Of a stretch of 47,738 nucleotides of DNA, positions 3,466 through 47,738 are shown in pieces. Source of the stretch: Candidatus Epulonipiscium viviparus (GTDB taxonomy: Bacteria > Bacillota > Clostridia > Lachnospirales > Cellulosilyticaceae). Under the pieces are notes generated by a model. That model did not search any database and was not told the DNA's origin. It saw only the letters and a program-made list of their open reading frames with translations. The translations under genes and the position numbers were made by a program. The DNA is taken from assembly GCF_000171335.1 (NCBI RefSeq), contig NZ_ABEQ01000004.3, forward strand, positions 2,501 to 50,238, in the 5' to 3' direction. Each line of letters starts with the position of its first letter. The stretch's first letter is position 1.

Positions 3466-6400
3466 ATGGCTTTAATGAAAAAATATCGAAGACAGATGGC
3501 AGCGACTCTTGTTGGTGCGATCATTTTAGGACCTATTAGTACTTTTGCAACTACCCCAGAAATTAATAAAGTAGGCGATTTAGTGGCTCTTGACGCGGCT
3601 AATACTGATCATGCAGGTCTTGCAGCAAATCATGGATACCTTTTTGAGTTACCGGGAACTCTACCTACTGATTACTCAGATGCGTTCTTAGTAACTAAGA
3701 CTGACTTCGAAAATGATTACGCTATCGATGCGCTTATTCTTGACGCTATCAGGCTAACTGGTATCAACACTTCTTCTACCGATGGTCTAGAGTATAAAGC
3801 AGCTGATAAATTTGTTGCGGAGAATAACACCGCTTTCGTTGAACTAAATGATTTACTTTATAAAACCACTTTTACTGGTAAAGGGTTCCAGTCCCACGTT
3901 GCGACCCTGAACTCCTCTTTGCAAGCGGCTATTGATGCTGTCAAAAATTTAATCCCTCAATCTGGAACAGGTACTGATGCTACTGGCTCCTCTAGCTACC
4001 AATTACGCATAGATGATTTAAAGAAATCTATTCATATAATTGATGCTCATATCGATTTTTCTGCTGCTCGAACTATTACTACTGGAACTGCTGATCCAGC
4101 TACTCCAACTAATCCAACTGAATTAAAAACCGGTTCAACTTCATTAGTTCCAATTGCAATAAGCTCCGATGGGAAGGATATCGCTAGCGATAAATATTGG
4201 GTAACGGCGACTATACGTAATGAAGTTGTTGAGGCGCTCGTAGCGGCTGATGAAGCTGTACAAAATGCCTACGCCGATGCTTATGCAGCTGAGAAAGCGG
4301 CTGCTAAAGCTGATAAAGCTGTACAAAATGCCTCCGCCGATGCTGAGGCTGCTACTGATACTGATACTGATACAACGATTAAAGAAGTATTTGAAGATAA
4401 TATAGAACATGGAATTACGAATCTCGGAACATTAGTTGCGCCGACTAAATTTAGTGGCTCACCTGATTTGGAGAAGGAAACCAATGAATCTGGAGAAGCT
4501 AAAACATCCACTGAGGAAGATTACGATAAGGATACACTAAGATCAGCTGATCAAGATTACACCACCACCGAGGAGCTTATTACTGCACAACAAAATCTGA
4601 CGAATGCTTATGCGAAATATATCGCATCTGCTAAACTAGGCACGCATGTTGTCAAAACAGCGAATCTCGAAGTTCAAATCGCGTTAGCTATGTTAGGATT
4701 AGATATTGAGGATGCTGTGACATTAAAAGATGATACTGTACCAGATTCGATTTCAAGGGCATCTGATACTCCTAAATTTTATGTTTATCAAACAACTGAT
4801 GGTGCCTCTTTTACAAATTCTACAAAAGCCACAGCTACTAAGATTGTAGAAACTACTACCGCGCCTACAGTTTTGAGAGAAGGCTTTAGCGATGACGCTA
4901 CCTATTTTATAGCGCCAGCTGTACTTGATAGTGAGTCAACAGAAAATTGGACTCATGGTATTACTGGTCTTTCACCAGCGGATATGCCTATGAAATACAT
5001 CTTGGAATCTGATGCCGAAAATATTTTGGCGGATTTGCAAGCGAAATACAACGAATATTTGGGATATGATGGAAACGATGAAGATGGAGAACTATTAAAC
5101 GGTCCTACATACTCAGAAGAAATCGCGGCGGGGGCGACAACTAATAAGCTGGCTGCAGTTATCGGAAACATCGCGGAGATCGCGACAGCTGTCGAAAATA
5201 AGACTAAATTGGCTAAAGTGGGTGATGAGGATCAACAAAAACAGGCCGCGATATTGGATTTGAAAAAGTATCTATTATACTTCGATGTGGCGGAGGTGGT
5301 AGATAATGCTGGATCTAAAGTATTCAAAAAAGCTGATGCTTTTACCGTGGCTGGTCTTAATAAAGAAGTAGTTGATAATGATACTCCGGCTGTTGCTGCT
5401 AGTAAAGCCGCCGAGTTCAATCCTGCTTCCATTAATGATGATTTAACAGGTACGATAACACCTAGACCCGAAACGGAGTATTACAATATCTCAGCTTACA
5501 AGGGAGTTGATATAGCAGATACTCAGTATTGGATCCCTAACGGTAAAATTTCTTTACAAACCAATCTCGCGAATGCAATTAAAGCGGCTTGGGAGTTGTT
5601 CGAAGTGGTACCTGACACTGAAGCTGGTGATCAAGTTGATGACACTACTTCAGCTACTCTATCCACTCTCACCAGCAAACTCGATGACATTAAAACTGCC
5701 CTTAAAGCATACGATGATGCGGCTAAGCCAGGTCGTTTAGCTGAATTTACAGATTCAAATGCAACCGGTGTACTCAAAGATGCTGAAACTGCGTTAGCCA
5801 CTCTTGATGGTCTCATCACTTTACCAACCATTGCAGTAAATACAGAAACTGGCAAACTTAAAATCACGGCAGCAAGAAAGATGGCTGCCGAAAGTGAGAG
5901 CGTACCAGCTTTATCTGATGACGGAATTTTCGCTATTAGCCAGGAAGCGTTTAAATCAGGATCTGATACAGGATATGAGTGGGGCGGCGACTCCAATGTT
6001 GCTGATGAGCAGAAAAAACTCATCGCTACAGCAAAGAAATATGTAACGCCAGCTCAGCTGGATGACTTAATCGCAGCCGCTAAGAAGCTGATGGATTTTG
6101 TAGCATACAAAGATCAATTCGCCGAAATTCATGCTGCCGGTACAAAGCAGGCGTTGAAAGATGAACTCTCAGACTATATCGACTACGCTACTGGCGACCA
6201 GCTTCAAAATGATATAGCTAATCTCGCTAATGCATTAATTGAGTTTAATGCGGGCAGTAAGCCGGTGATGTCTTATACAACTAATAGAACTGCATTAAAT
6301 GATGCTATCATTGACCCAACTACTGGACTTCGAAACACAATAAAAGTAGATAATACTAATAATGGAACTGTTTACATCGATTCTGCTGATAAAAAATTAG

Positions 6401-12543: not shown

Positions 12544-13316
12544 GTCCAAAATACTAAACCATCCTCCGAGGCAGCAATAGCTCGGGGGGCGATAATAGCT
12601 CCGGAAGCGACATCGGCTCAGGGGGCGACAGCGGCTCAGGGGGCGACAGCAACTTAGGATGAGATAATAGCTCGGGATACAACATCAACTCGAGAGGCGA
12701 CAGCAACTCAAGATGCGACATCAGCTCAGGAGGCAGCATCAGCTTAGGAGGCGATAAGAGCTCGGGATGCGACATCAACTTAGGATGAGATAATAGCTCG
12801 GGAGGCGGCATCAGCTCGGGATGCGACAATAGCTCGGGAAGCGGCATCGGCTTAGGAGGCGGCATCAGCTTAGGAGGCGATAAGAGCTCGGGAGGCGACA
12901 GCAGCTCGGGAGGCAACATCAACTCAGGAAGCGGCATCAGCTCGGGAAGCGATAATAGCTCAGGATGCGGCAACAGCTCGGGATGCGACATCAGCTCGGG
13001 AAGCGACATCAGCTCAGGATACGGCATCGGCTCAGGATGCGATAACAGCTCGGGAAGCGACATCAGCTCAGGATACGGCATCAGCTCAGGATACGGCATC
13101 AGCTTAGGATGCGGCAATAGCTCAGGAAGCGATAATAGCTCGGGAAGCGGCATCAGCTTAAGAGGCGACATCAGCTCGGGAAGCGGCATCAGCTTAGGAT
13201 GAGATAATAGTTCGGGAGGCTACAATAGCTCGGGATACGGCATCGGCTTAGGATGCGATAACAACTCGGGAAGTGACATCAGCTTAGGATACGATATTAG
13301 CTCGGGGCTTGATTAC

Positions 13317-13370
13317 AGAAATGGCAATGATTACCAATGCGAAAATAGTATTTTCAATCGGCGACACAGC
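13317..13370 (+). repeat. Divergent 54-bp insert in array 1, copy 1
   Basis: AGAAATGGCAATGATTAC and the two following 18-base blocks do not match the array consensus but occupy exactly three units. They recur almost unchanged at 16233, exactly 2916 = 162 x 18 bases later. The insert divides array 1 into blocks. In one plus frame it reads MAMITNAKIVFSIGDTA before returning to repeat sequence. Confidence 0.75.
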
Positions 13371-16232
13371 AACTGAGGATGCGGCATCAGCTTAAGAGGC
13401 GACATCGGCTCAGGAAGCGGCATCGGCTCGGGAAGCGGCATCGGCTTAGGAGGCGACATCAGCTTGGGAGGCAGCATCGGCTCGGGATGCGGCATCAGCT
13501 TAGGAGGCGGCATCAGCTCGGGAGGCAGCATCAGCTTAGGAGGCGACAATAGCTCGGGAGGCGACATCAGCTCGGGAATCGACAGCGGCTCGGGAGGTGG
13601 CATCAGCTCGGGATGCGACATCAGCTTAGGAGGCAACATCAGCTCGGGAAGCGGCAGTAGCTCAGGATGCGGCAACAGCTCGGGAAGCGGCATCAGCTCG
13701 GGAGGTGACATCAGCTCGGGATGAAATAATAGCTCGGGAGGCGGCATCGGCTTAGGAGGCGGCAATAGCTCAGGGGGCGACATCAGCTTGGGAAGCGGCA
13801 TCAGCTTGGGAGGCGGCATCAGCTCGGGATGCGGCATCAACTCAGGATGCGACATCGGCTCGGGAGGCGGCAACAGCTCGGGATGCGACAATAGCTCGGG
13901 AGGCGGCAATAGCTCGGGAAGCGACAATAGCTCGGGAGGCGATAATAGCTCGGGAAGCGGCAATAGCTCGGGAGGCGGCAATAGCTCGGGAAGCGGCATC
14001 AACTCAGGATGCGACATCGGCTCGGGAGGCAGCATCAGCTCGGGGGGCGACAATAGCTCGGGAGGCTGCAATAGCTCAGGAAGCGACATCAGCTCGAGGG
14101 GCGGCATCAACTCAGAGGGCAACAATAGCTCGGGGGACGACATCAACTTAGGATGAGATAATAGTTCGGGAGGCTACAATAGCTCGGGAAGCGGCATCAG
14201 CTCGGGAAGCGGCATCAGCTCGGGAGGCAGCATCAGCTTGGGAAGCGGCATCGGCTCAGGATGTGACAATAGCTCGGGAAGCGATAATGGCTCGGGAAGC
14301 GATAATAGCTCGGGATGCGATAATAGCTCGGGAGGTGACATCAACTCAGGATGCGGCAACAGCTCGGGAAGCGACATCAACGTAGGATGAAATAATAGCT
14401 CGGGAAGCGATAATAGCTCGGGAGGCGACATCAGCTCGGGAAGCGGCATCAGCTCGGGAGGCTACAATAGCTCAGGATGCGGCAACAGCTCGGGAGGTGA
14501 CATCAGCTCGGGATGCGATAATAGCTCGGGAGGCGACATCAACTCGAGAGGCGACATCAGCTCGGGGGGCGACATCAACTTAGGATGAAATAATAGCTCG
14601 GGAAGCGACATCAGCTCAGGAAGCGACATCAGCTCAGGAAGCGATAATAGCTCAGGAGGCGACATCAACTCGGGAGGCGACATCAGCTTAGGAGGCGATA
14701 AGAGCTCGGGATGCGACATCGGCTCGGGATGCGACATCGGCTCGGGATGCGACATCGGCTTAGGAGGCGGCATCAGCTCAGGAAGAGACATCGGCTCAGG
14801 ATACGGCATCAACTTAGGAAGCGGCATCAGCTCGGGAGGCTACAATAGCTCGGGAAGCGACAACGACTCGGGTGGTGACATCAGCTTAGGAGGCGATAAG
14901 AGCTCGGGAGGCGACATCAGCTCGGGAGGTGACAGCAACTCAGGGGGCGACATCAGCTCGGGAGGCTACAATAGCTCGGGAAGCGGCATCGGCTCAGGAT
15001 GCGACATCGGCTCAGGATGCGACATCGGCTTAGGAGGCGACATCAGCTTAGGATGAGATAATAGCTTGGGAGGTGGCAGCGGCTCGGGAGGCGATATCAG
15101 CTCAGGGGGTGACATCAACTTAGGATGAGATAATAGTTCGGGAGGCTACAATAGCTCGGGAGGCGGCAACAGCTCGGGAGGTGACAATAGCTCGGGAAGC
15201 GATAATAGCTCAGGAAGCGGCATCAGCTCGGGAAGCGATAATAGCTCGGGAGGTGACATCAGCTTGGGAAGCGGCATCAACTCAGGAAGCGGCATCGGCT
15301 CAGGATGTGACAATAGCTCGGGAAGCGGCATCAACTCAGGAAGCGGCATCAACTCAGGAAGCGGCATCAGCTTAGGAGGCGGCATCAACTCAGGGGGCGA
15401 CATCAACTCAAGAAGTGACAGTAGCTCGGGAGGCGACATCAGCTCGGGAGGCGATAAGAGCTTGGGAAGCGACATCAACTTAGGATGAGATAATAGCTCG
15501 GGAGGCGACATCAGCTTAAGAGGCGACATCGGCTCGGGAAGCGGCATCGGCTTAGGAGGCGACATCAGCTTAGGAGGCGGCATCAGCTTAGGATGAGATA
15601 ATAGCTCGGGAGGCGACAATAGCTCGGGATGCGACAATAGCTCGGGAAGCGACATCAGCTCGGGATGCGACAATAGCTCGGGATGCGACAATAGCTCGGG
15701 AGGCTACAATAGCTCAGGAAGCGATAATAGCTCGGGAAGCGGCATCAGCTTAGGAGGCGACATCGGCTCGGGAGGTGACAGCAACTCAGGAAGAGACATC
15801 AGCTCAGGGGGCGACAGCGGCTCGGGAGGCGATAATAGCTCGGGAGGCTACAGCGGCTTAGGATGCGACATCAGCTCGGGATGCGGCAATAGCTCGGGAA
15901 GCGACATCGGCTCAGGATACGGCATCGGCTCGGGAGGTGACATCGGCTCGGGAGGCAGCATCAGCTTAGGAGGCGGCATCAGCTCGGGAGGCGACATCGG
16001 CTCGGGAGGTGGCATCAGCTCGGGATGCGATAATAGCTCGGGAAGCGATAATAGCTCGGGAAGCGGCATCGGCTCAGGAGGCGGCATCAGCTTAGGAGGC
16101 GATAAGAGCTCGGGAGGCGGCAATAGCTCGGGAGGCGGCATCAGCTCGGGAAGCGGCATCGGCTCAGGATGCGACATCAACTCAGGGGGCGACATCAGCT
16201 TAGGATACGATATTAGCTCGGGGCTTGATTAC

Positions 16233-16286
16233 AGAAATGGCAATGATTACCAATACGAAAATAGTATTTTCAATCGGCGACACAGC
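16233..16286 (+). repeat. Divergent 54-bp insert in array 1, copy 2
   Basis: This differs from copy 1 by very few bases (for example CCAATACG instead of CCAATGCG) and is flanked by the same preceding unit ending CTTGATTAC. The 18-bp register is kept on both sides. Confidence 0.75.
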
Positions 16287-17310
16287 AACTGAGGATGCGA
16301 CATCAGCTTGGGAGGCGACATCAACTTAGGATGAGATGATAGCTCGGGATACAACATCAACTCGAGAGGCGACAGCGGCTCGGGAGGCAACATCGGCTCG
16401 GGAAGCGACATCGGCTCAGGATGCGACATCAACTCGGGAAGCGGCATCAACTCAGGATGCGACATCAGTTTGGGAAGCGGCATCAGCTTAGGAGGCGATA
16501 AGAGCTCGGGAGGCGACATCGGCTCAGGGGGCGGCAGCAGCTCGGGAGGCAGCATCAGCTTAGGATGAGATAATAGCTCGGGGGGCGACATCAACTTAGG
16601 ATGAAACATCGGCTCAGGAAGAGACATCAGCTTGGGAAGCGGCATCAGCTCGGGAAGCGGCATCAGCTTAGGAGGCAACATCAGCTTAGGAGGCAACATC
16701 AGCTTAGGAGGCGATAAGAGCTCGGGAGGCTACAATAGCTCGGGATGCGACATCAGCTTGGGAGGCGACATCAACTTAGGATGAGATGATAGCTCGGGAT
16801 ACAACATCAACTCGAGAGGCGACATTAGCTCGGGAAGCGGCAGTAGCTCGGGAAGCGACATCAACTCAGGATGAGATAATAGTTCGGGAGGCTACAATAG
16901 CTCGGGAAGCGGCAGCGGCTCAGGATGCGACATCGGCTTAGGAGGCGGCATCAGCTTAGGATGAAATAATAGCTCGGGAGGCGACATCAACTTAGGATGA
17001 GATAATAGCTCGGGAAGCGGCAGCGGCTCGGGAGGCGACATCAGCTTGGGAAGCGGCATCAGCTCGAGAGGCGACATCAACTCAGGAAGAGACATCAGCT
17101 CGGGAAGCGGCATCAGCTTAGGAGGCGACATCAGCTTAGGAGGCGACATCAGCTTGGGAAGCGGCATCAACTCAGGAAGAGACATCAGCTCGGGAGGTGA
17201 CATCAACTTAGGATGAGATAATAGCTCGGGAGGCAGCATCGGCTCAGGAGGCTACAATAGCTCAGGGGGCGACAGCGGCTTGGGGGGCGATAATAGCTCG
17301 GGACTTAGTT

Positions 17311-27526: not shown

Positions 27527-27569
27527 GCCGACATATAGCACGAGGCTGAGCTTGTAGTAGCAATGATAG

Positions 27570-30954: not shown

Positions 30955-31034
30955 ATATACGAAAATATAACATCTCTAGCGACCGTTTCAGCGGCAGCTA
31001 AAAATTCTGCTATACGTAAAATTACGATTACATA

Positions 31035-31073: not shown

Positions 31074-31114
31074 TATTGTTGCTACTACAAGCTCAGCCTC
31101 GTGCTATACGTCGA

Positions 31115-31330
31115 CTTATGAACGCTTAAATAGGTTTTTCACTCGTTCTATAAATTCTGATTTACTGAGCTTGCTGAGAAGTCAAATTATGCATTGGCTT
31201 ATGAACGCTTAAATAAGGCTTTTCACTCGTTCTATAAATTCTGATTTACTGAGCTTGCTGAGAAGTCAAATTATGCATCGGATTATGAACGCTTAAATAG
31301 GTTTTTCACTCGTTCTATAAATGACTTATT
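31115..31330 (-). repeat. Three tandem copies of the B(-) C-terminal tail coding end
   Basis: The stretch encoding FIERVKNLFKRS plus stop is present at the true end of B(-) (stop at 31285-31283) and twice more downstream, with stop positions at about 31201-31199 and 31118-31116, spaced 84 and 83 bases apart. The extra copies keep part of the preceding FDFSAS-like coding sequence but carry indels (for example AAATAAGGC instead of AAATAGG), so they are not translated as tails. Tandem duplication at a gene end is the simplest reading. Confidence 0.85.
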
Positions 31331-34300: not shown

Positions 34301-37300
34301 TGGTGTTTCCCCGTCGTCTCCAAGTAAAATTGCATTCGCCTCGTCGACAAGGTCTTGCAAGTCTGATACTAATCCATCTCTTTCATCAAATCTTCCTTCG
34401 CCTCTAGCGCCTGCTACTTTCGCCAACGTTGTTGCCGCGTTGTTCAATCCGGTATATGCGGCAGTCAGGCTCTTGGTATTTGCCGCTGGAGCATTGAGTG
34501 CTGTTTGCGCTGCGATCACCGCGTTTTTAAATCCGTTGTAATTTGCCATCGGTACCCAGTTATATGAACTGTCGACGTCGCCACCGTCTCCTGATAACGT
34601 TCCTCTTACTGCGACATCGATCGCTAATTCTCCACTCTCCAGGCTAATGCCTTCCTCGAATACACCGTTTTTATCAAATCCAAGTACACTGAAACCTTGT
34701 ATTATCGAACTTGCTAGCTTTGTATATGACTCTTGATACGCTTCTGATGCTTCGCTGGTAGAAGAATCTGATGTTTTTACTGCCGCGTCGAACACTCCGT
34801 TGGCTCTCTCTAATACTGTAATCGCGTTTGTTAGGATGGCTTGATTTTTTACTTTATCTGCGGCCATATCGAATCGGTCTAATGACGCTTGCGCTCCATT
34901 GATTGCTGCTACAAATTGATTTACTGCGACGCTTGATATCCATTGAGTATCGGTTGGTACATCGATTCCATTGGCTTTACTTGATACGCGGATGTCTGGT
35001 CCGTTGTCTGCTTCTTCTTCATCGATTCCATTTCCGTTGCCATCGTCGCCGTCTTCCATTTTCTCGAAGTTATAATCTTCATCTGGAATCAATTGGTCGT
35101 AGCCATACGAGTTGCCCGCAGTTCCGTCTGATAATGTGTATTTAAAATGCGGTCTTGGCGCTCCTTTGAGGTATACAAGGTCGTTGACTTTCGCTACAGA
35201 AAGTTCGATAAGGCTGCGGATTTCTGATGTCTCCACTAAGTTCGTTCCTTGCTGTACTTTCGGAACAATCCCGTCGATCGCTTTGCCTTCTAAATCTCTT
35301 CCGTAGAAGAATTCGTACGATCTCTTAATATTATTGAGCGATACGACAAGTGCCGGAAGGCTAGTTTTCGATGTTGGTTTATCAGGGTTGGCAAATTTCA
35401 AAAGAACGTTTTCCGCCACTGTTGCTGCGTTAAGAATCTTGGTCACTTCAAGTTTGGTTGACCAATATTGGTTTACCGCGACGTCGGCTCCGTTGAGTAA
35501 ACTTTGTGCTAATTTATCTGCTGCGATGATCGCTCCATCGGCATAAGTTTCGTTTCCTTTTCTGATGTTGTTCACATACGTTTGCATTGTCGCCGCCACT
35601 GATGCGTACAATTCTTTCGCTCCGTATTGAGCGGTTCTCTCGAAGTTGGCGATGCTATTGTTAAGTATCAGTTGCGCTTTGTCTAACGATGTTTCAGTTG
35701 CTAATGTATGCTTATATGCATTAACAGCGGCCTTGATAGCTGTCTTCGCTGCATTGAGCGCCGCTTGCGATGTCCAGCGATCTCCAGAATCTGGAATTAA
35801 ATTGCCGTCTTTATCTTCTCCAGATACATCGGTTCCGAACGCTGTACTGACAACGATTCTGCCTTCATCTATAATTACGGCGTTTACATCTTGAGTCCCG
35901 TCTTCCAAATATGCTTGTTGGCCTGTCAAAACTGTCGCGTAATTTATGCGTGCTAATAATTCAGCCTTGGCCGCATTAAGTTTATCCATAGCCTCTTTCT
36001 CTGCGGTGCCTGGTGCTGGCTTGAACGCCGCTCCAAGACGCGCGTTAGTTGTAAGTTGCGTAACAAGAGTTTTATTAAATGTGGCAGATGCTTTTGCGGC
36101 GGTGGTTGTATTGTTTAATAATTTTTCGGTGTTCGTCAATGCTGCCTTCAAACCATTTAATTGTGCGGATGTTACCCAATATGTGTCTTTAGCTGTTGAA
36201 GCACCTTTGTTGTCGCTGGCTACAACTTCTTTGCCGTCTTTCATTAATAGAGCCTCGGTACTCACGTAACTATTGTATAGATCGATTTTCGCGTTCTTCT
36301 CGATTTCTACGTCTTTAACTTCTTTCGGTGCTTGATTTACTAACAATGCAAGCGCCTCTACTTCTTCGGCTTCTACTTCGTCGCCAGCATCTTCTACTAC
36401 TTTTATCGCCGCTTTCAATGCATCGATATATGCTTTTTCAAAGTATACCGCCTCACCAAATGCGGTTGTGATCTCGGCATCAGATAGACCATAAATAATT
36501 TTGTCATTGTCATCCTTATCCTCATCCGTGTCAGCTGCTGCAAGAGCGGCTAGCGTGAGAACATCGAATCCACCTGGTAGCTCGCTGACTAACGCATCTC
36601 TATTGTCGACAGGGTCAGCACCGCCAGCTACTTTGTCAGCTCCATAAATAATTACTTTTGCCGCATCAATCCACTCCGCAGCTTTTTCTGTACCAACATC
36701 CTCAGTTTTAGTAGGAACAAATGCCGCCACCACTTCAGTGAAATCTACTTGGCTTTCAAAGTATTTAGTCGTTAATGTTCCTACAAGTGTTTTAGCTGCA
36801 TCTGTTTTCGTAGTATCAGCGAATGCAATTGTGAGGGTTTCTTCATCTTCTGCTGAAAGCTCGAGATCCCCTATTGCTGCTGCACCAGCCGCTTTAAGAG
36901 CCTTACCTTCTTCAGTAGCTATATCAGCCTCGAGGCCGGCTTTGATTGTATTGAGCGCTGTTATTGTGTGAATATATGCATCAACAATACCTTCGTCGAA
37001 GCTTGCGGCATCGTTTATTAATTCCTGCGCATCTATGATAGCGTCTTTTAGGTTTTTGAACATTGTTGGAGTTACCCAATACATACCATCTTCATATACT
37101 TTATCTTCAGTCGCCACACCATATTCGTCACATTCATAAATGCCATCAAGTGATAGTTTAACTTTACCTCCCAATATAATTTCTGTCGTTAAATCTACTG
37201 CATTATCAGAATTAAAGGTTACAGTAATCGCATCTGCAGTTGCGAAAACTTCACCAGCGGCATCTTTGAATTTGAAGTATTCAGTACTGAGTGCCGTGGT

Positions 37301-40300
37301 TCCAAGTGCGGTCTGAGCCAATCCATAATTCGTTGTGAAGGCAGCTTTAACGTCAGCATGTGCTTTCTTACCAGCATCATAGGCCTCTTTCGCAGTAGTA
37401 AGTTTAGTTTGAATATCGTTTAAGTAGTTAGCATTTAGTTCAATTAGCTTATCTAGGTCAACGAGACTCTTGTTCTTAGCATCTTCGGCTGCTTTAATAG
37501 CTAACATATAGTCGTTTACAACTCGTGAATTTACGTAATGAGCCGGAGTATCTTCATATGGCTCGCCCGATACAGAGTTGATAAGGCCAAACTTGTCATT
37601 ACTTACATACACACCTGCAGGGAAGTAGGTGATTGTCTTATCAGCGTTTTCAATTTTATAAACGCTATCTGCAGCTCCTTCGATCCATCCAGATTCTTCA
37701 CGGTTATCTTTCGTAGGAGCTCCAGTCGCAAGAGTGTATAGAGATCCAACAGCGGTGATGAACGTGTCAAGGTCACCTTTTACACTCGTAATATCTTCTG
37801 GTTTTTCATACGCCTTCTCGAAAGCCGCCTTAGCTGTAGCGAGGGTCTCGTTCGCCATTTCAAAGTAATCTTCACCGGTCGCCGCCGCTGATACCATCTT
37901 CGCTAGAACATCTTCGTTAAGACTTAATTCCGCATATGCTTTTGTACTATCAAGAGCGTCGGTTACATCAGCACCGACTTGAGCTGTAGCGCCTGTGCCA
38001 ATAATATCTTTAGCTGCAATCTTACTTTCTTTAACAACGTTCTCAGCGGCCACAATTGCTGCATTATATGCCGAAAGCGTTGCTTCATCAACCCAATTAG
38101 TCGGAGCTGTAGTAACAGGCTCCCACTTGCCAGAAGTATCTCCGTTAATAGGGGTGTATTTCACAAATGTATAGCCACCATCTTTTGATATCGCAACTTC
38201 TGTTGAATCTGGATCTATATAAACTGTTCCATCAGTATCCACGCGGATTAGATCTCTAATTGAGCCATCTGCGGCGGCAGTTCCTGGAGGAGCTTCCATG
38301 TCAGCATTTATAGTAGTAACTAGCTCAGCTCTTTTGGCATATGACACAACTTCCTTCTTAGCATCTTCGAAAACTCCCACCGCTGTTTCAATTTTATCGG
38401 CTATTGCTTCGATTTCGCCATTTAAGTATTTAGCAACTAAGTCGTTATATAGATCGCTCGCATTCTGGATTGCTGTAGAGTGAACGTCTACTATAACTCC
38501 AGCTGGAGCGATAGTAGTATTGTTAACCAACAACGCTACTGGGTCGATTGCCGCAAACAATGCATCAAGATCCGCTGGAGTTACGTAATGAGTAGCCGTA
38601 GCCGCCATAAGCTTCTCGTTTTGAATGAAGCTATGCGCAGCAGTAGCTTCAGTGGCCGCAGCATCAAGTGCGAATCCTTCTGGAGCTACAGTGAATACTT
38701 CACGAGTGATAGTGAATACTCCATCATCGGATAATACAGTCTCCTTAGCCTCAGGTATAGATCTTTGCGTTGCAAGAACCGGAGCAGGTTTAGTGGTAGG
38801 ATCCTCAGGCGTAAATGTAGGAAGAGTAACATGTAGCGTAACCGTAGCCAAAGCATCAGTAATTTTCTTAACCTCTTCTGCGAAGTCGTCCTTGAGACCT
38901 TCTTTAGCGGCTGCGTCGTATGCCTCAATTGCTGCCTCTACCTCCGCGATCTTTGCTTCAACTAAAGCTGTTGATGTTGTAGATGTAGAATCAGCAACTA
39001 GGCCAGAGAGGAATGTGTGCGCATCGTTTAAGGTATATGCAAGATCATTGCGCTCATCAGCAGTTACCCAGAAGTGGTCTTTACCAACATCGAGGCCATC
39101 TTTTGCTGAAATATTGTAGAATGTCTCAACAGTTTTAGCTAGTACAGTAGTAACATCTTTGCCAACATTGAGTTTACCAATCTCCTCGCCAGCAGCTGTT
39201 GAAACAGCGGTGAGAGCCGGTTTTGTGACAAATGCAGTAGTAGCTGTATCAGTTGATGCTGCGAATTTACCATCTGCCCAAGTACCATAGTTAAAGTAAG
39301 CAAGATACTTGCCAAGCGTATCCATAGCCTCTTGCCTTTCAACAGAAGCACCAACTTTTGCTATGTCGGCGATTTCCTCACCAAATGCTGCCATCTTCTC
39401 GGCTACAAGAGTGATCTTGGTATCCGCACCATAATCATTTTTAGCCGCCGCTGAAATTCCCGCACTGATTTCTGCACGGTATGCTTTATATTCGGCTTCA
39501 GTATCAACACCAGTCTTTCCGCCATTTTCTGTAATATCTTCACCATCATAAAGTTTCATCTCCGCGATTAACTTTTTCAATACACTAGCTTTAGCGTTCG
39601 CCTCAGCTGGTGTGATATATGTGGCATCGATTGCAAGATCAGCATCATTTGCAAGATTACGAACTTTTCCAATGGCGAAGGAGTTATTGGTCACAGCTGG
39701 AGAGATAAAGTATTTATCATCATTACCAAAACCGATTTCAGCTTCAGTAGGGTCTGTACCAGTCGCCTTTACAACTTTAGTAGCCGCACTTTTTGCAACT
39801 GGAGCAGTAGTAGTAGAATCGGCGGCGACGGCGGCATACATATACACTTGAGGAGTCGATGCGAAAGAGAGAGCACTCTCTAAGTTAGGATTATCAGCAG
39901 GATCAAGTCCGAGCATCGCTATAGCAATTTGCTTGTCGAGTTCGAATGTAGCGGCATTGATAAGTTCTGCCTCACCGTCTTCGGCATCAAGATAGGTATC
40001 ATACGCATCGGATAGGTTCTTCAACGCTGTTTTTAAATCTTCGATGGTAGTATAGTTGGTAGCGGTTCCGGTACCCATATCTTTATCGTAAGCGGTTTCG
40101 TCTGGTAATTTGGTTATCATTCCCGTAGTGCCTGCTGTTTCATTTGTCGTTAAAGTAGAATCAGTTACCGCTCCGGCGAACTCTTTAAACTTATCAGAAG
40201 TCTCGACAGCGGTACCAAAATCAAATTTAATTGCGGTGTCATCTGCGGTATTCTTGACTTTGGTATCAGGGTAGAAGTTCTTTACAGCGGCAACGGCTGC

Positions 40301-40999
40301 ATCTAGCTTATTTTCTAAGTCTGTGTAGATAGCATCAGTAACCCAGTATTTTCCATCTGTAACATCGAGTCCATCTTTACTAATAGCAATTTTCACGGCC
40401 TGCGTCGCGGCTATAGTTGTATCTTCGCCAAAGTCAACTGGCTTCTGCTCAGTTCCCGCTGGTGGGGCATCAAGAATTAGTGGTGCAAACTCAGAATAAT
40501 CCATATGGGCATCAACGTAGTGAATCTCTTGCTTTAGCTCATCGATAGCTGTTTTGTACGCATCTCCAGTTCCAGCTTCTAAATCGATTTTAGCAACATC
40601 TTTATTAACATCTGTAATAATTTTAGCTATTTCTTCAAGATGCTCAATCAATCCGTGAGAACTGTCTTGTGCTATCTTATCTGTTAGTAACATATTTTCG
40701 AGAGCAACGAATGCTTCATCATCCTCTGGAATATAAAATTGAGTTGTAGCGAATTCTAATCCTTCTGTGAGAGAAGTGTGAAGAGCAGTGAGCCTCAATG
40801 ACTTGCCAAATTCATCATCTATTACAGGAACATCTTTCGGATCAGTAAGCTCTACATAACCAATTGAATCATCAGCATCAGCCTCTGTCATAAGAGAGCC
40901 GATAGTCTCAGCCGCAACATTGAGCGGAGTAACAGCTATAGCACCAGAAGCAAGTAAAGTAAAAGCCATTTGTTTTCGATATTTTTTCATTAACGACAT
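31283..40999 (-). CDS. Giant exported helical-repeat protein, type B, copy 2 (3238 residues)
   Basis: This is an inverted paralogue of B(+), facing it across array 2. The signal peptide (KKYRKQMAFTLLASGA core) probably ends at VAA. The Trp repeats run from about residue 219 to about 2357 in the same order as in B(+). Compared with B(+), the part from about residue 1600 onward is nearly identical, and long stretches of DNA around 35300-35600 and 23300-23500 differ at only a few bases. The N-terminal half shows many replacements and indels, making this copy 86 residues shorter. The acidic/aromatic tail and the end FIERVKNLFKRS are kept. It has an AAAAAAGGAGATGA ribosome binding site. One Cys was seen and no anchor motif. 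The function is unknown; a surface role is inferred. Confidence 0.85.
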   Translation of the reverse strand: MSLMKKYRKQMAFTLLASGAIAVTPLNVAAETIGSLMTEADADDSIGYVELTDPKDVPVIDDEFGKSLRLTALHTSLTEGLEFATTQFYIPEDDEAFVALENMLLTDKIAQDSSHGLIEHLEEIAKIITDVNKDVAKIDLEAGTGDAYKTAIDELKQEIHYVDAHMDYSEFAPLILDAPPAGTEQKPVDFGEDTTIAATQAVKIAISKDGLDVTDGKYWVTDAIYTDLENKLDAAVAAVKNFYPDTKVKNTADDTAIKFDFGTAVETSDKFKEFAGAVTDSTLTTNETAGTTGMITKLPDETAYDKDMGTGTATNYTTIEDLKTALKNLSDAYDTYLDAEDGEAELINAATFELDKQIAIAMLGLDPADNPNLESALSFASTPQVYMYAAVAADSTTTAPVAKSAATKVVKATGTDPTEAEIGFGNDDKYFISPAVTNNSFAIGKVRNLANDADLAIDATYITPAEANAKASVLKKLIAEMKLYDGEDITENGGKTGVDTEAEYKAYRAEISAGISAAAKNDYGADTKITLVAEKMAAFGEEIADIAKVGASVERQEAMDTLGKYLAYFNYGTWADGKFAASTDTATTAFVTKPALTAVSTAAGEEIGKLNVGKDVTTVLAKTVETFYNISAKDGLDVGKDHFWVTADERNDLAYTLNDAHTFLSGLVADSTSTTSTALVEAKIAEVEAAIEAYDAAAKEGLKDDFAEEVKKITDALATVTLHVTLPTFTPEDPTTKPAPVLATQRSIPEAKETVLSDDGVFTITREVFTVAPEGFALDAAATEATAAHSFIQNEKLMAATATHYVTPADLDALFAAIDPVALLVNNTTIAPAGVIVDVHSTAIQNASDLYNDLVAKYLNGEIEAIADKIETAVGVFEDAKKEVVSYAKRAELVTTINADMEAPPGTAAADGSIRDLIRVDTDGTVYIDPDSTEVAISKDGGYTFVKYTPINGDTSGKWEPVTTAPTNWVDEATLSAYNAAIVAAENVVKESKIAAKDIIGTGATAQVGADVTDALDSTKAYAELSLNEDVLAKMVSAAATGEDYFEMANETLATAKAAFEKAYEKPEDITSVKGDLDTFITAVGSLYTLATGAPTKDNREESGWIEGAADSVYKIENADKTITYFPAGVYVSNDKFGLINSVSGEPYEDTPAHYVNSRVVNDYMLAIKAAEDAKNKSLVDLDKLIELNANYLNDIQTKLTTAKEAYDAGKKAHADVKAAFTTNYGLAQTALGTTALSTEYFKFKDAAGEVFATADAITVTFNSDNAVDLTTEIILGGKVKLSLDGIYECDEYGVATEDKVYEDGMYWVTPTMFKNLKDAIIDAQELINDAASFDEGIVDAYIHTITALNTIKAGLEADIATEEGKALKAAGAAAIGDLELSAEDEETLTIAFADTTKTDAAKTLVGTLTTKYFESQVDFTEVVAAFVPTKTEDVGTEKAAEWIDAAKVIIYGADKVAGGADPVDNRDALVSELPGGFDVLTLAALAAADTDEDKDDNDKIIYGLSDAEITTAFGEAVYFEKAYIDALKAAIKVVEDAGDEVEAEEVEALALLVNQAPKEVKDVEIEKNAKIDLYNSYVSTEALLMKDGKEVVASDNKGASTAKDTYWVTSAQLNGLKAALTNTEKLLNNTTTAAKASATFNKTLVTQLTTNARLGAAFKPAPGTAEKEAMDKLNAAKAELLARINYATVLTGQQAYLEDGTQDVNAVIIDEGRIVVSTAFGTDVSGEDKDGNLIPDSGDRWTSQAALNAAKTAIKAAVNAYKHTLATETSLDKAQLILNNSIANFERTAQYGAKELYASVAATMQTYVNNIRKGNETYADGAIIAADKLAQSLLNGADVAVNQYWSTKLEVTKILNAATVAENVLLKFANPDKPTSKTSLPALVVSLNNIKRSYEFFYGRDLEGKAIDGIVPKVQQGTNLVETSEIRSLIELSVAKVNDLVYLKGAPRPHFKYTLSDGTAGNSYGYDQLIPDEDYNFEKMEDGDDGNGNGIDEEEADNGPDIRVSSKANGIDVPTDTQWISSVAVNQFVAAINGAQASLDRFDMAADKVKNQAILTNAITVLERANGVFDAAVKTSDSSTSEASEAYQESYTKLASSIIQGFSVLGFDKNGVFEEGISLESGELAIDVAVRGTLSGDGGDVDSSYNWVPMANYNGFKNAVIAAQTALNAPAANTKSLTAAYTGLNNAATTLAKVAGARGEGRFDERDGLVSDLQDLVDEANAILLGDDGETPIFTSATGKDVPVGENWLTGPTISALNAQVTLATNSITNAGTDPHPVTGLKGNGRTTINQLNTNIKTITTVLERSEPKEGTLEGDMTDAAKARLVLKAQIDQANAYVKTRISNYQGTELADGVTWVTGANVDGFKYSDTENADSIRPTIFISMAVKRAMPAYNKLYTAVGAQEGYEQASTDLQSAIDQFENILANKTPGGADVGADKPRLSGTGSLNSINVEKVAINAKMAEYSTTVKLTRVASDDTAIAKLPEGVYYASATEIGTMNTAIATARKALGTFEKTADAATFLRDVVSADLTEAHNTFLSARKMKGIYEETTMATAETAIKTLFDGDDENQIILPASSTVDSAKAYIKNLVESVIANETITVDVNDVAIGTASTPGTAEKPEGTAGSGTAKIKLTNTQAAADATDKDITVDATFKVAATPYKWDAISKTNVLMAASKVHSETEFVVDGAIAKAASDAEDPAADETTKLAAEAKAVAADLKMQIENLINDSAIEVFVVAADSDENNALTGDKNLTTITAATDDYEHQTPDTENKKGEDGQLEFNVALRLSFDEVPGILMIAEPAIVSELVEVTNDDATGAAASEEHYTVIFKDALTAKVTAAPYTVSSPADKAAVDMANTIYTENVEKTAHSIENTLENPATTEALAKAQISKQITNLLTKGFGSNSTDAAHNYDVIEDVTFEIITKTFTAPTREADGSFTFAVKFTQGIDSTSSADQAALTITQNPEDALGDFVAALESFPTFAATYVYNASGSLEKVDPKDDGSFEYEEGVGPYVLADKNATDKLRASSDIMLYLGAAVKNAVGSGATVTLDDKYTAFKRALSATPAKAGINGIFKFVAVVTEGDRTERTFQITIPIVALPYEKPEEVKAVEANLISLGLDLDAIDKFEEEEIPAFNEPAIEENDEDEFVSEYTEEFVEEELTFDEPAYEEEAYEEPTFDEEYEEYFEELFEEEEEYFEEQFEEQFEEELFMEESFDFSTSKNKSFIERVKNLFKRS

Positions 41000-41198: not shown

Positions 41199-44100
41199 TT
41201 GTGTATTGCCATTATTTGGAATTATCAAGATATAAGGTGCCATAACAGCTTAAAGTATTACTTTAACCGAGAAATTTTCGTCACCGGAAACGCTTGTGGT
41301 TGCTACATAATTAGCTTCAAGTATTACTTTAACTGCGGCAAAATCGGCTGTAATTCGTACAGTAAAATTATCGGATGTACCAGCCACAGCGACGATCAAG
41401 ATGTAAATCACCATAACAGCTTAAAGTATTACTTTAACCGAGAAATTTTCGTCACCGGAAACGCCCGTCGTTGCTACATAATTAGCTTCAAGTATTACTT
41501 TAACTGCGGCAAAATGGGCTGTAATTCGTACAGTAAAATTATCGGATGTACCAGCTATTGCGATGATCAAGATGTAAGTCGCCATAATAGCTTAAAGTAT
41601 TACTTTAACCGAGAAATTTTCGTCACCGGAAACGCCCGTCGTTGCTACACAATTAGCTTCAAGTATTACTTTAACTGCGGCAAAATCGGCTATCCTAGCT
41701 ATTGCTATCGCATCGACCTCACCAGCTATTGTCATTGCATCGACCTCATCAGCTGTTGCCACCGAGTCGGCTACCCCAGCTATTGTCATCGCATCGACCT
41801 CACCAGCTGTTGTCATCGAGTTGGCTTCGCGAGCTACTGCCATCGAGTCGACTGCCTAGTTATTGCCATTATTTGGAATTATCAAAATGTAAGTCGCCAT
41901 AACAGCTTAAAGTATTACTTTAACCGAGAAATTTTCGTCACCGGAAACGCCTGTGGTTGCTACATAATTAGCTTCAAGTATTACTTTAACTGCGGCAAAA
42001 TCGGCTGTGATTTGTACAGTAAAATTATCGGATGTACCAGCCACGGCGATGATCAAGATGTAAGTCACCATAACAGCTTAAAGTATTACTTTAACTGAGA
42101 GATTTTCGTCGCCGGAAACGCTTGTGGTTGCTACATAATTAGCTTCAAGTATTACTTTAACTGCGGCAAAATGGGCTGTAATTCGTACAGTAAAATTATC
42201 GGATGTACCAGCTATTGCGATGATCAAGATGTAAATCACCATAACAGCTTAAAGTATTACTTTAACCGAGAAATTTTCATCACCGGAAACGCTTGTCGTT
42301 GCTACATAATTAGCTTAAAGTATTACTTTAACTGCGGCAAAATCGGCCATCCTAGCTATTGCCAGCGAGTCGGCTACCCCAGCTATTGCTATCGCATCGA
42401 CCACCCCGGCTATTGTAATCGAATCGGCTCCGCTAGCTATTGCTATCGCATCGACCTCACCAGCTGTTGCCATCGAGTCGGCTACCCCAGCTATTGTCAT
42501 CGCATCGACCTCATCAGCTGTTGCCATCGAGTTGGCTTCGCGAGCTACTGCCATCGAGTCGACTGCCTAGTTATTGCCATTATTTGGAATTATCAAAATG
42601 TAAGGTGCCATAATAGCTTAAAGTATTACTTTAACCGAGAAATTTTCGTCACCGGAAACGCTTGTGGTTGCTACACAATTAGCTTCAAGTATTACTTTAA
42701 CTGCGGCAAAATCGGCTATAATTTGCACAGTAAAATTATCGGATGTACCAGCTATTGCGATTATCAAGATGTAAATCACCATAACAGCTTAAAGTATTAC
42801 TTTAACCGAGAAATTTTCGTCACCGGAAACGCTTGTGGTTGCTACATAATTAGCTTAAAGTATTACTTTAACTGCGACAAAATCGGCTGTGATTTGTACA
42901 GTAAAATTATCGGATGTACCAGCCACGGCGATGATCAAGATGTAAAACACCATAATAGCTTAAAGTATTACTTTAACCGAGAAATTTTCGTCACTGGAAA
43001 CGCCCGTCGTTGCTACATAATTAGCTTAAAGTATTACTTTAACTGCGGCAAAATCGGCCATCCTAGCTATTGCCATCGCACCGACCTCATCAGCTGTTGT
43101 CATCAAATCGGCTTCACCAGCCGTTGCCATCAAATCGGCTCCGCTAGCTATTGCTATCGCATCGACCTCACTAGCTGTTGCCATCGAGTCGGCTACCCCA
43201 GCTATTGCTATCGCACCGACCACCTCAGCTATTACCATCGCACCGACCACCTCAGCTATTACCATTGAATCGGCTCCGCTAGCTATTGCTATCGCACCGA
43301 CCACCCCAGCTGTTGTCATCAAATCGGCTTTGCCAGCTGTTGCTATCGCATCGACCTCACCAGCTGTTGCCACCGAGTCGGCTTCGCCAGCTATTGCTAT
43401 CGCATCGACCTCATCAGCTGGTGTCATCGAGTTGGCTTCGCGAGCTACTGCCATCGAGTCGACTGCCTAGTTATTGCCATTATTTGGAATTATCAAGATG
43501 TAAGGTGCCATAACAGCTTAAAGTATTACTTTAACCGAGAAATTTTCGTCACCGGAAACGCTTGTGGTTGCTACATAATTAGCTTAAAGTATTACTTTAA
43601 CTGCGGCAAAATCGGCTGTAACATCATTGTGATTGAAAATCATTTTTGTATAAGTATCGACTGATTCGTTATCATTATTTTATGCCATCAAATCAGTCGC
43701 GTTAGCTGTTGCCATCGAGTCGGCTTCGCCAGCTATTGTCATCGCACCGACCTCATCAGCTGTTGCCACCGAGTCGGCTACCCCAGCTATTGTCATCGCA
43801 CCGACCTCATCAGCTGTTGCCACCGAGTCGGCTACCACAGCTATTGCTATCGCATCGACCTCATCAGCTGTTGCCATCGAGTTGGCTTCGCGAGCTACTG
43901 CCATCGAGTCGACTGTCTAGTTATTGCCATTATTTGGAATTATCAAAATGTAAGGTGCCATAACAGCTTAAAGTATTACTTTAACCGAGAAATTTTCGTC
44001 ACCGGAAACGCTTGTGGTTGCTACATAATTAGCTTAAAGTATTACTTTAACTGCGGCAAAATGGGCTGTAATTCGTATAGTAAAATTATCGGATGTACCA

Positions 44101-45224
44101 GCTATTGCGATCATCAAGATGTAAAACACCATAACAGCTTAAAGTATTACTTTAACCGAGAGATTTTCGACACCGGAAACGCCTGTGGTTGCTACATAAT
44201 TAGCTTAAAGTATTACTTTAACTGCGGCAAAATCGGCTGTAATTTGTACAGTAAAATTATCGGATGTACCAGCCACGGCGATGATCAAGATGTAAAACAC
44301 CATAACAGCTTAAAGTATTACTTTAACCGAGAAATTTTCGTCACCGGAAACGCTCGTCGTTGCTACATAATTAGCTTAAAGTATTACTTTAACTGCGGCA
44401 AAATCGGCTGTGATTTGTACAGTAAAATTATCGGATGTACCAGCTATTGCGATGATCAAGAGGTAAAACACCATAACAGCTTAAAGTATTACTTTAACCG
44501 AGAGATTTTCGTCACCGGAAACGCTTGTAGTTGCTACATAATTAGCTTAAAGTATTACTTTAACTGCGGCAAAATCGGCTCCGCTAGCTATTGCTATTGC
44601 ATCGACCTCATCAGCTGTTGCCACCGAGTCGGCTTCGCCAGCTATTGCTATCGCACCGACCACCCCGGCTATTGTAATCAAATCGGCTTCGCCAGCTATT
44701 GCTATCGCATCGACCTCACCAGCTGTTGCCACCGAGTCGGCTCCGCTAGCTATTGTCATCGCACCGACCTCACCAGCTGTTGCTATCGCACCGACCACCT
44801 CAGCTATTACCATCGAATCGGCTTCGCCAGCTATTGCTATCGCATCGACCTCACCAGCTGTTGCCACCGAGTCGGCTACCCCAGCTATTGCCACCGAGTC
44901 GGCTTCGCCAGCTATTGCTATCGCATCGACCTCATCAGCTGTTGCCATCGCACCGACCACCCCGGCTATTGCAATCAAATCGGCTTCGCCAGCTGTTGTC
45001 ATCGCACCGACCACCCCGGCTATTGCAATCAAATCGGCTTCGCCAGCTGTTGTCATCGCACCGACCACCCCGGCTATTGTAATCGAATCGGCTCCGCTAG
45101 CTATTGCCATCGCATCGACCTCATCAGCTGTTGCCATCGAGTCGGCCATCCTAGCTATTGCCATCAAATCGGCTTCGCCAGCTGTTGTAGCTACTCTGAC
45201 GGATTTAATGGTATTTTTTGCTAA
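41199..45224. repeat. Array 3: composite satellite of 171-bp, 27-bp and linker units
   Basis: About 14 starts of a 171-bp unit (X; for example 41248, 41419, 41590) alternate with five blocks of 27-bp units (Y; about 60 in all) and a short linker containing CCATTATTTGGAATTATCAA (Z) after each Y block except the last. X itself has two sub-units that both begin GCTT[AC]AAGTATTACTTTAA. The Y-end landmark GCTACTGCCATCGAGTC occurs at 41833, 42544, 43444 and 43894; the distances 711, 900 and 450 are all multiples of 9. The array has no visible similarity to the 18-bp family, yet it occupies the mirror position of array 1 (between A and B). Confidence 0.9.
41199..45224 (+). pseudogene. Long, nearly open plus-strand frame through array 3 (Cys/Tyr-rich repeat ORF)
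   Basis: One plus frame runs from TTG at 41199 to TAA at 45222-45224, about 1340 codons, with only three stops that I found. All are TGA (42096, 43266 and near 43668), and two of them replace CGA present in sister units. It would encode 57-residue repeats (SLKYYFNREIFVTGNACG...) and 9-residue Cys/His-rich repeats (RIDLTSCCH, RVGYPSYCH). No signal peptide, ribosome binding site or known domain is visible. It may be accidental openness of units whose lengths are multiples of three. I list it as a possible broken gene only. Confidence 0.2.
44547..45190 (-). repeat. Largest 27-bp repeat block, in frame with the preceding A(-) stop
   Basis: About 23 units such as GCTATTGCTATCGCATCG plus ACCTCACCA lie just downstream of A(-). 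On the minus strand, in exactly the frame of A(-) after its TAA, they read as 9-residue Ala-rich repeats (AIAGEADSV, ATADEVDAM) that stay open for about 230 codons from 45236 to 44547. There is no intervening intrinsic terminator that I can see. Confidence 0.7.
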
Positions 45225-45236: not shown

Positions 45237-47738
45237 TTATGAACGCTTGAAGAATGACATAATTCTAGATCCTATAGATCTTGTCGGAGTAGCATTTTTC
45301 ATTGGTGGTGGGCTACCTGCGTCTATTTTTAGATACTCACCAGGAGTTATGATCGCTTCAAATGTTTCGTCGAAGATTACTGTGTAGAACTCATTGTTGG
45401 TAGTGTCATCGGCACCAGAGGCATCATCTTTAACTACTTCTACTAATTCATCCTCGATTGCTGGAGTAGAGATAGTCGCCACACCAGGATTTGCTTTGGC
45501 ATAAGGGATTCTTAATGCTATATTAAATACGAATGCACCGTCTTCAGACTCATCTTCGGCTTCTGGATCCTCAGGGTCTGGCTTATTAACTTGTGGCTCA
45601 TATGCTGCTGTTGCATCGACAGTGTCAGTTGTGAATATATTCTCGGCTTTTAATTCGCCAGTTTCGGCATCAAATCCTTCGGATACAATATATACTTCAA
45701 CATCTCCATTATTAATTAACGCTTTCACTTGTTTCTCGATTTCTTTAGCGGCGAGAAGAGCATTAGCTTTATTTCTAGTTGCCTTATCTGCATCTGCATT
45801 GATTAGTAAGTTGCCATCGATCGTGAATTCTCTTGAAGAGTGAATGCGAGATGCGGCTTCGAGCACTGCTGACTTCTCGATTACTGTCCACTTATATGGA
45901 GCGGCTGCCACTATAAACTCACCTTCGATCACTACTGGTTCAATACCCGTACCCGTAACAGCAGTAGTGCCATCATCTTCCATTAATGTAATCTTAACGG
46001 AAACTTCATTTTCACCAACTTCACCATCAGGCTCTTCTGCAGTACCTGGAGTTGCTGCTGTGAAACCAGTGATTGTAGCTTCAACCTTAAATTGAGCCGT
46101 AATAGGAGTTGCTGTACCAGATCTATCAACAGTAATATTCATGTCTATGCCCGCAGCGGTGATTACTTCGTTAAGTTTAGTTTCGATATGAGCTTTTGCT
46201 CCATCAGTATCCATAGCGTCGGTGGTGCCGGTTTTAAGTGCTGGAACCACGATCAACTCGTCGCTTTCAAGTACCGCGGTTATGGCCGCTACAGCTTGCT
46301 CTAATGGAGTACCTGCGTACTTAGATTTTTCTTTTACTTTGTCAATTTTAGTTGTATCTTCATTAGTTTTGGGATGATTATCGTCTATTCCTGAGAATAA
46401 TTCGAATGCGCTATTTAAATGACCCAATGCGCTAGTAGGTGCCGCAGCTGGATCATCGGCGGTGGTTCCGTCTAATGAACCTGCTGTTAACTTAGCCGCA
46501 TCTGTGGCGGTGTCCTCGAGATCGCTTATCGCATCTGTCGCAATTTCGATCGCGGTTTCTATTGCAGAGATAGAATCAGTGTCTGAATACAACGTGCCCA
46601 TCGCCAATTCGTAAATATCGCCGTCTTCACTTTCGTCAGTCATACTGCTTACTTCTACGACTGTTTCCACATAGGCTTTGATTGCCTCGATTCGTGCAGT
46701 TAACACTTCTTTTGCTGTGTTCAGAGTATCCATTGTTCCAAGGCCTCCGATTAGTGTATCACCAGCGACAGCCTCTCCAGCTGGTGTTTTGTTAGCTACA
46801 ACGTTGGCAAACTGCTCGATCGCTAACTCTAATTTTCCGATTGCTTCAGTCAACTTGGCCGCAGATCCTTCTGCTGTATGCGGATTCGCCTTCAATACAT
46901 CGCTCGCCGCCTTATGCGCGTCAATGATAAATTCTTTCGGTGCCATCGATTCGCTCTCGCCATCAACTGTGAACCCATCCACGTCTTCTTCTGTTACCCA
47001 AGCTAGGCCGTCCGCGACATCGTTCCCTTGTACATCGCTTTGCGCGTACTTTGTATATTCGAATGCCTGCGCTATTAACATCGTAAGTTCGTTTTTCGCT
47101 TTTACCGCATCGGCTGTTTCGAGATCTGAGTCCAGCTTACCAGGTTTTAAAAGTTTGGTTGCAGTTGTGACGCTATTTTTGAGAGACGTGATCGTTTGCC
47201 CAATACTAGCGAGCGTGGTTTTGCCTGTACCAACAGCTCCGGTGATAGGGTCTTTGTCAGTTGTGGTGTTGAAGATAGCAGCAGTAGCTAGCTTGATCTG
47301 GTTGTTGAGTGCAGTGATTTGCGCCGTCGGAAGCCAATTGGAATCATCTGGAACATCCGCCCCGGTCGCTGATGCGAAAATAGGGGTACGTCGGTCGGAA
47401 CCGTAGAGAATGGCTTCGATATCTTTGATAAGCGATTCCAATTCTTCGATTTTGGTGAGCATTTCATCGTTTTTACCCATTCCGTTTTTCGCCGCCGCTG
47501 AAGTTAGGATGGCTGTTGATTTGTCGAACGCGCTATACGCATTGCTAAGCTGAAGGGTAAGCGTGGTCGGTAGGCTGATCACTTTCTTCGCGTTGTTAAT
47601 AGCGTTGACGTAAGCGTTATACTGCAATGTATTTACCCATTGCGAATACGAATCTACGTCGCTACCGTCTCCCGCGAGGCTAAGCTTTATCGTGTTGAGT
47701 AACGCGAGTGGGCCGCCAGCCAAATTGCCGTTGATGAC
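45237..47738 (-). CDS. Giant exported helical-repeat protein, type A, copy 2 (C-terminal 833 residues, runs off right edge)
   Basis: The frame is open to the right edge, so the N terminus is missing. The TTG near 47723 is an internal codon and not a start. It matches the last ~930 residues of A(+). LSLAGDGSDVDSYSQW corresponds to LSLSGDGGDVSSFYAW in A(+), and EDGDIYELAMGTLY to EDGDIYELAIGTLY, a segment that I did not see in B. Beta modules follow, but one fewer tandem copy than in A(+). The end SIGSRIMSFFKRS shares the conserved tail, and there is no acidic/aromatic tail. Identity to A(+) looks only moderate by eye (roughly half to two thirds), clearly lower than between the B copies. By analogy a signal peptide should lie about 2000 residues upstream. 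Confidence 0.85.
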   Translation of the reverse strand, partial: VINGNLAGGPLALLNTIKLSLAGDGSDVDSYSQWVNTLQYNAYVNAINNAKKVISLPTTLTLQLSNAYSAFDKSTAILTSAAAKNGMGKNDEMLTKIEELESLIKDIEAILYGSDRRTPIFASATGADVPDDSNWLPTAQITALNNQIKLATAAIFNTTTDKDPITGAVGTGKTTLASIGQTITSLKNSVTTATKLLKPGKLDSDLETADAVKAKNELTMLIAQAFEYTKYAQSDVQGNDVADGLAWVTEEDVDGFTVDGESESMAPKEFIIDAHKAASDVLKANPHTAEGSAAKLTEAIGKLELAIEQFANVVANKTPAGEAVAGDTLIGGLGTMDTLNTAKEVLTARIEAIKAYVETVVEVSSMTDESEDGDIYELAMGTLYSDTDSISAIETAIEIATDAISDLEDTATDAAKLTAGSLDGTTADDPAAAPTSALGHLNSAFELFSGIDDNHPKTNEDTTKIDKVKEKSKYAGTPLEQAVAAITAVLESDELIVVPALKTGTTDAMDTDGAKAHIETKLNEVITAAGIDMNITVDRSGTATPITAQFKVEATITGFTAATPGTAEEPDGEVGENEVSVKITLMEDDGTTAVTGTGIEPVVIEGEFIVAAAPYKWTVIEKSAVLEAASRIHSSREFTIDGNLLINADADKATRNKANALLAAKEIEKQVKALINNGDVEVYIVSEGFDAETGELKAENIFTTDTVDATAAYEPQVNKPDPEDPEAEDESEDGAFVFNIALRIPYAKANPGVATISTPAIEDELVEVVKDDASGADDTTNNEFYTVIFDETFEAIITPGEYLKIDAGSPPPMKNATPTRSIGSRIMSFFKRS

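Follow-up and report, generated by a model that had tools for sequence, protein, structure and literature searches.

Two facing pairs of giant genes in Candidatus Epulonipiscium viviparus probably encode hypervariable, putatively surface or secreted rods under diversifying selection

The locus analysed here probably comprises two facing A→B gene pairs that encode hypervariable, putatively surface or secreted rod proteins under diversifying selection, a reading to which we assign a probability of about 0.68. It lies in the window, namely the whole stretch of 47,738 nucleotides that was analysed, which corresponds to positions 2501-50238 of contig C89 (NZ_ABEQ01000004.3) in assembly G000 (2.69 Mb, 92 contigs). 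The initial annotation drew attention to the mirror symmetry of the locus, and this symmetry is real but partial; of greater interest than the mirror itself are the giant proteins encoded in pairs, on which diversifying selection appears to be strong.

Layout of the locus and the mirror order

ORF calling and translation gave four giant ORFs in the order A(+) B(+) | B(-) A(-) with the mirror centre at about 29,404, which confirmed the two A and two B paralogues that had been placed in mirror order around 29,400. A(+) (3466..12489, + strand; ORF, translation and module HMM) encodes a giant protein of 3007 aa, predicted to be exported, with 15 FIVAR-like modules, and is without a terminator ahead of array 1, an 18-bp satellite of ~262 copies (12579..17303, +; TRF and frame scan) lying between A(+) and B(+). 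B(+) (17552..27526, +; ORF and module HMM) encodes 3324 aa with 15 modules and an acidic Phe/Glu-rich stretch that is followed by the tail KSFIARVKNLFKRS, and a Rho-independent terminator region lies behind it (27560..27611, +). Array 2, also an 18-bp satellite (27861..30652, +; TRF), forms the spacer between the convergent units. On the minus strand, B(-) (31283..40999; ORF, module HMM and change-point) encodes 3238 aa with 15 modules; 3′ of its stop are two extra 84-bp copies of the CDS end (31111..31282, in a wider span of 31111-31352, - strand), which are decayed duplicate tails, and a terminator region (31031..31080, -) with the same stem as that of B(+). Array 3, composed of 171-bp and 27/54/81-bp satellites (41240..45187, strand not given), lies between B(-) and A(-), the latter present in the window with its 3′ part (45237..47738, -; translation). 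The window end falls on an ambiguous base (one N codon) inside A(-); its completeness past 47,738, a check proposed beforehand, was established in the contig, where the gene runs on to position 56406 and is whole at 2889 aa. Two ORFs of 403 aa (window 353-1564) and 1003 aa (L003:7795-10806) adjoin the locus and had no Pfam or NCBIfam match, and an Rfam scan of the window returned no match.

A third A→B pair was found on contig C78 and in G011, a second genome of the same species, with ~0.7 kb and no satellite between its genes. The repeating unit is thus A then B, and the window holds two such units facing each other. The ribosome-binding site AAAGGAGATG is common to A, B, A78 and B78 (the A and B genes of the third unit) and lies upstream of each. 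With terminators after both B genes of the window, and the satellite straight after A, the layout would fit one transcript per A→B unit.

The mirror order could in principle have arisen as an assembly artefact from collapsed strain variants. The assembly represents a mixed population: it contains ambiguous bases as well as the allelic contigs C17, C5 and C1, and the B end of C5 is 100% identical to B(-) of C89, a sign of graph branching. G000 holds two haplotypes per hypervariable unit (C17, C5 and C1 versus C89 and C78), which means either that several strains were sampled together or that polyploid cells carry more than one allele. G011, in turn, is a single contig of 3,282,261 bp, and the chromosome of Epulopiscium sp. 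type B (Ca. E. viviparus) is described as circular and of 3.28 Mbp (PMC8245194). This one contig carries B+, array 2, B-, array 3 and A- in the order and orientation of C89 at 89-95% DNA identity; its start lies within array 1 and its end within the 21-bp array to the left of A+, an array that C89 also has at its left end, and A+ therefore falls in the unclosed gap of G011. Within the window's own assembly, C17 is an allele of A+-array 1-B+ and C5 an allele of A--array 3-B-, each ~94% identical in DNA. Taken together, G011, C17 and C5 mean that each junction of the C89 locus was seen at least twice, with every junction present in a second, independently assembled haplotype. The mirror order is therefore real, and the artefact that had been named as a possible refutation is highly improbable.

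Satellite DNA was likewise found where it had been reported, with tandem arrays in 3/3 gaps between giant genes (TRF). Arrays 1 and 2 have the 18-bp unit in common and in identical orientation, and array 3 is unrelated, so the satellites are not mirrored; array 2 has the same orientation in G011 as in C89, and the allelic contig C17 carries an array equivalent to array 1. In 0.98 Mb of G011 sampled (blocks L108-L175, this locus included), arrays account for ~6% of the sequence; they lie for the most part outside ORFs and are frequently distant from giant genes. The satellites are a genome-wide intergenic feature, and since they occur across the genome they probably stand outside the variation mechanism. 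Of the 28 arrays ≥300 bp that lie outside ORFs, 25 have a period that is a multiple of 3, and most of the larger ones checked contain stops in every frame despite such a period. The arrays as coding sequence were also considered and rejected, as no frame is open through any array of the window.

Module architecture and range of the protein family

The A and B proteins consist of a signal-like hydrophobic N-terminus (MSLMKKYRKQM...), modules, a C-terminal domain and a cationic tail. The module HMM identified 14-15 copies in each A or B protein, and 13-21 per family member, of a module of ~100 residues with the consensus ...SSxxGADVPxxxxWVTPxxxxALxxAI.... The tail (F/I)xxRVKNLFKRS or similar is found in all A and B proteins, ending in KNLFKRS or NFFKRG, and a search of the other proteins of the genome for the same tail returned B-type genes only. 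A surface location of these proteins is suggested by the signal-like N-terminus and the tail; no LPXTG, SLH or obvious membrane anchor was found in them.

Whole A/B proteins had no match in Pfam and NCBIfam. The module consensus resembles FIVAR (PF07554) with an E value of 1e-3 and 20.2 bits, below the gathering cut-off of 29.2, and individual modules also stay below the Pfam FIVAR cut-off; the best PDB match of the consensus was the Embp structure 6gv8 (E 3.5e-3). AlphaFold modelling of four modules yielded three-helix bundles with three long helices per module and a short beta linker (pLDDT 85), and the predicted fold thus has the tandem three-helix bundles of the FIVAR domain family. Foldseek of the four-module model against the PDB gave no match at E ≤0.001, probably owing to the difficulty of aligning a flexible rod. 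The C-terminal domain was modelled with a pLDDT of 65 as mixed helices and strands, and is predicted to contain beta structure.

The staphylococcal proteins Ebh and Embp are likewise giant exported proteins of tandem three-helix modules (PMC7587433, PMC9302970), and the A/B proteins, as predicted, are like them exported, elongated and built of many helical repeats. The differences are considerable: Ebh/Embp reach a size of 1 MDa, whereas the A/B proteins have ~3,000 residues; Ebh/Embp carry a YSIRK signal and a C-terminal membrane region, whereas no YSIRK was seen in A/B, which have the cationic tail and no hydrophobic stretch at the C-terminus; and, unlike Ebh/Embp, the A/B family shows paired genes, a dN/dS >1 and modules below the FIVAR cut-off.

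A genome-contig scan with one protein query gave no match, and the same scan with an alignment profile matched only Epulopiscium sp. AS2M-Bin001, of the same genus as the window. The family is present in 4/5 genomes of the genus and in 0/19 other genomes of the GTDB family, and the only matches beyond the genus in an order-wide sample were two that were short and weak. Judged by such sequence matches, the giant-protein family was shown to be genus-restricted. Epulopiscium sp. AS2M-Bin001, a different species, has more than 10 family members, with a 4231-residue relative of 21 modules (L123:395-13090) among its proteins. Huge ORFs of 5,500-6,900 residues lie near the locus in G011 (G011:C1 46240-66762, 98729-119368, 3239388-3256001 and 3261255-3279710).

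Amino-acid change between alleles

G000 and G011 are ~99% identical in the background, against 90-95% at this locus. Allelic changes were compared with a neutral expectation from 300 simulations that kept the observed substitution spectrum, and dN/dS was calculated by NG86 with bootstrap intervals; the selection comparisons cover three or four haplotypes by pairwise counting, with no codon-model likelihood test. Between C89 and G011, A- differs by 382 amino-acid and only 61 silent changes where 104 silent ones are expected, and the third unit behaves alike, with 368:58 (102 silent expected) for A78 and 271:42 (76 silent expected) for B78. The same was found between alleles of the window's own assembly for A+ against C17 (112:18, 34 silent expected) and B- against C5 (148:28). 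In each of these five comparisons, 0/300 simulations were as low in silent changes as the observation. The dN/dS values were 1.85-1.94 for A-, A78 and B78 against G011 and A+ against C17, with bootstrap intervals >1 for the three against G011, and 1.47-1.62 for A78/C1, A-/C5 and B-/C5, among which only the A-/C5 interval includes 1. The B genes of the window gave lower values: B+ (C89 vs C17) has a dN/dS of 1.05-1.1, which is not significant, and B- against G011 has 1.05-1.3 over the whole gene, with only its N-terminal part showing the excess.

Neighbouring genes mostly have a dN/dS <0.3, the exceptions being a family member on C91 (0.5-0.7) and a short control ORF with a dN/dS >1 that is a piece of A78 itself; the giant paralogue S40 shows 15:36 changes between G000 and G011 (dN/dS 0.12). 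The dS at the locus is 0.03-0.06 compared with ~0.02 in the background; silent divergence is thus not depressed, and codon bias is not the cause of the values above 1. The alleles therefore combine intact reading frames (in all those compared, except G011 B+) with a dN/dS significantly >1, which by sequence comparison points to diversifying selection, more weakly for B+ and the B- core. G011 B+ (L108:1154-10461) is broken by 19-bp and 1-bp deletions relative to C89; it may be nonfunctional, that is, a pseudogene in the G011 strain, or a misread or assembly error.

The pattern of allelic change is alike in all three units: the N-terminal 1,500 residues are variable, the core to ~2,450 is conserved, the C-terminal domain is variable and the tail is constant. 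It is in these N-terminal residues and in the C-terminal domain that dN/dS exceeds 1. Polar residues change at a rate of 14%, LIFYWM at 3.6% and Trp at 0.6%, and the GxDV...WVT motif hardly varies, in contrast to positions in loops and on helix faces. These alleles have the appearance of a constant scaffold with selected surface change, the surface position of the residues being predicted. Diversifying bacterial surface antigens, such as variable coat and porin proteins, similarly join a conserved framework to variable exposed residues with a dN/dS >1; in comparison with these, the change in the A/B family extends over ~2,000 residues of the giant rods and affects three paired units, and its surface exposure is predicted.

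The amino-acid excess could alternatively reflect relaxed constraint together with imported diverged alleles, the proteins being low-complexity structural filler. The locus dS of about twice the background suggests that the alleles are somewhat older or imported, and allele mosaics do occur, A+ residues ~1700-2250 being identical between C89 and C17; such long identical tracts inside diverged genes would be explained by exchange between alleles. Relaxation, however, yields a dN/dS of up to 1 and not 1.9-3.0, and no neutral simulation reached the observed values. The intact frames, the conserved core residues and Trp, and the purifying selection on the core of B- and A78 (w 0.4-0.6) argue in the same direction, and we regard relaxation as unlikely.

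Under the preferred reading of diversifying selection, each gene would produce an exported rod of ~3,000 residues, made of 14-15 FIVAR-like three-helix modules and a beta-containing C-terminal domain, that would be located at the cell surface or around it. For assembly or anchoring the rod may rely on its conserved core and its tail, and phages, host immunity, predators or competitors would select for diversity on the exposed faces, with allele recombination and occasional gene conversion between units shuffling the variation.

Exchange between units and comparison with known loci

The A copies are, as stated earlier, more diverged than the B copies, with 42% protein identity for A+/A- and 74% for B+/B-. 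The claim that the B arms form inverted repeats of about 10 kb and that the B pair may have been homogenised held for the 3′ part alone. A change-point at 22127/36658 divides the B genes into a 5′ part that is 34% different and a 3′ part that is 5.8% different, corresponding to DNA identities of 66% over 4.6 kb and 94% over ~5.4 kb. The true inverted repeat therefore comprises a left arm at 22127..27535 (+; change-point, windowed identity and BLAST) and a right arm at 31278-36658 within the B(-) region, separated by a spacer of ~3.7 kb. The B+/B- dS reaches 0.88 across the 5′ half but falls to 0.07-0.09 across the 3′ half, and as purifying selection cannot cause such a drop in dS, the 3′ parts have been homogenised or recently exchanged. 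Gene conversion between the B genes may have been helped by their facing 3′ ends ~3.7 kb apart. A 191-bp island inside the diverged B(+) 5′ half (19100..19290, +) is 94% identical to 39372-39562 and is found in G011 as well; its sequence makes a second conversion tract likely.

At informative sites of the B genes, 1369 group the alleles by gene and 15 by strain, which indicates that the homogenisation of the 3′ parts predates the strain split; conversion between B+ and B- as an ongoing process was rejected on the same counts. The closest paralogue of A(+) is A78 and not A(-), an affinity limited to the N-terminal half. A single simple nested inverted duplication is not supported, given the grouping of A+ with A78, and together with the partial homogenisation of B this places the history of the locus, on sequence evidence, in segmental exchange among units rather than in one inverted duplication.

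The initial annotation further proposed that the long repeats can invert the centre. The mirror would then be a recombination switch, in which the B arms invert the centre or swap ends and so vary expression or sequence, and two features speak for it: the true inverted repeats (5.4 kb, 94% identical, ~3.7 kb apart) and the past exchange evident from the homogenised arms. As in invertible phase-variation loci, inverted repeats flank a central segment; unlike in those loci, the centre was found in one orientation in both G000 and G011, the two haplotypes (C89 and G011) that cover it, and no recombinase family was matched among the adjoining genes scanned. These genes comprised a CoA ligase subunit, a permease, a chemotaxis receptor, a SpoVB-like protein and unmatched ORFs. 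No strain-specific exchange since the split is evident either (15 vs 1369 sites), and the centre consists of satellite and two terminators only, so that its inversion would alter no coding sequence except swapped B ends. The proposed inversion thus found no support in these haplotypes, and a switch appears quite improbable.

The gut symbiont Apilactobacillus kunkeei offers another comparison, its Giant1-5 genes lying one after another and encoding extracellular proteins of 3,000-8,000 residues according to the accessible part of their description (PMC12863079). In that part, Giant1-5 resemble A/B in strong between-strain variation, recombination and one homogenised pair; their dS is reported to be 4-8 times dN, i.e. 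purifying selection, opposite to the dN > dS of the A/B alleles, and neither a mirror order nor satellites are described for them there (PMC12863079).

FIVAR-like giants, segmental gene conversion and diversifying surface proteins are each already known. Their combination here, and an amino-acid excess over such lengths, are new as far as the open literature shows, and an earlier description is possible. More speculatively, and with rather low probability, the facing A-B units might act as an engine of diversification that suits a bacterium of extreme polyploidy: numerous alleles would be present side by side in its thousands of genome copies, and recombination of alleles, paralogous units and facing B arms would continually generate new giant coat proteins that escape recognition by phage or host.

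Few known bacteria have cells as large as those of the uncultured Epulopiscium, and the coat and attackers of these cells are little known. An investment of ~10 kb per gene, together with faster-than-neutral amino-acid change over long stretches, points to the surface at which the cell makes contact. The A/B family provides a ready marker for strain typing and offers a test of phage, host or competitors as the evolutionary drivers.
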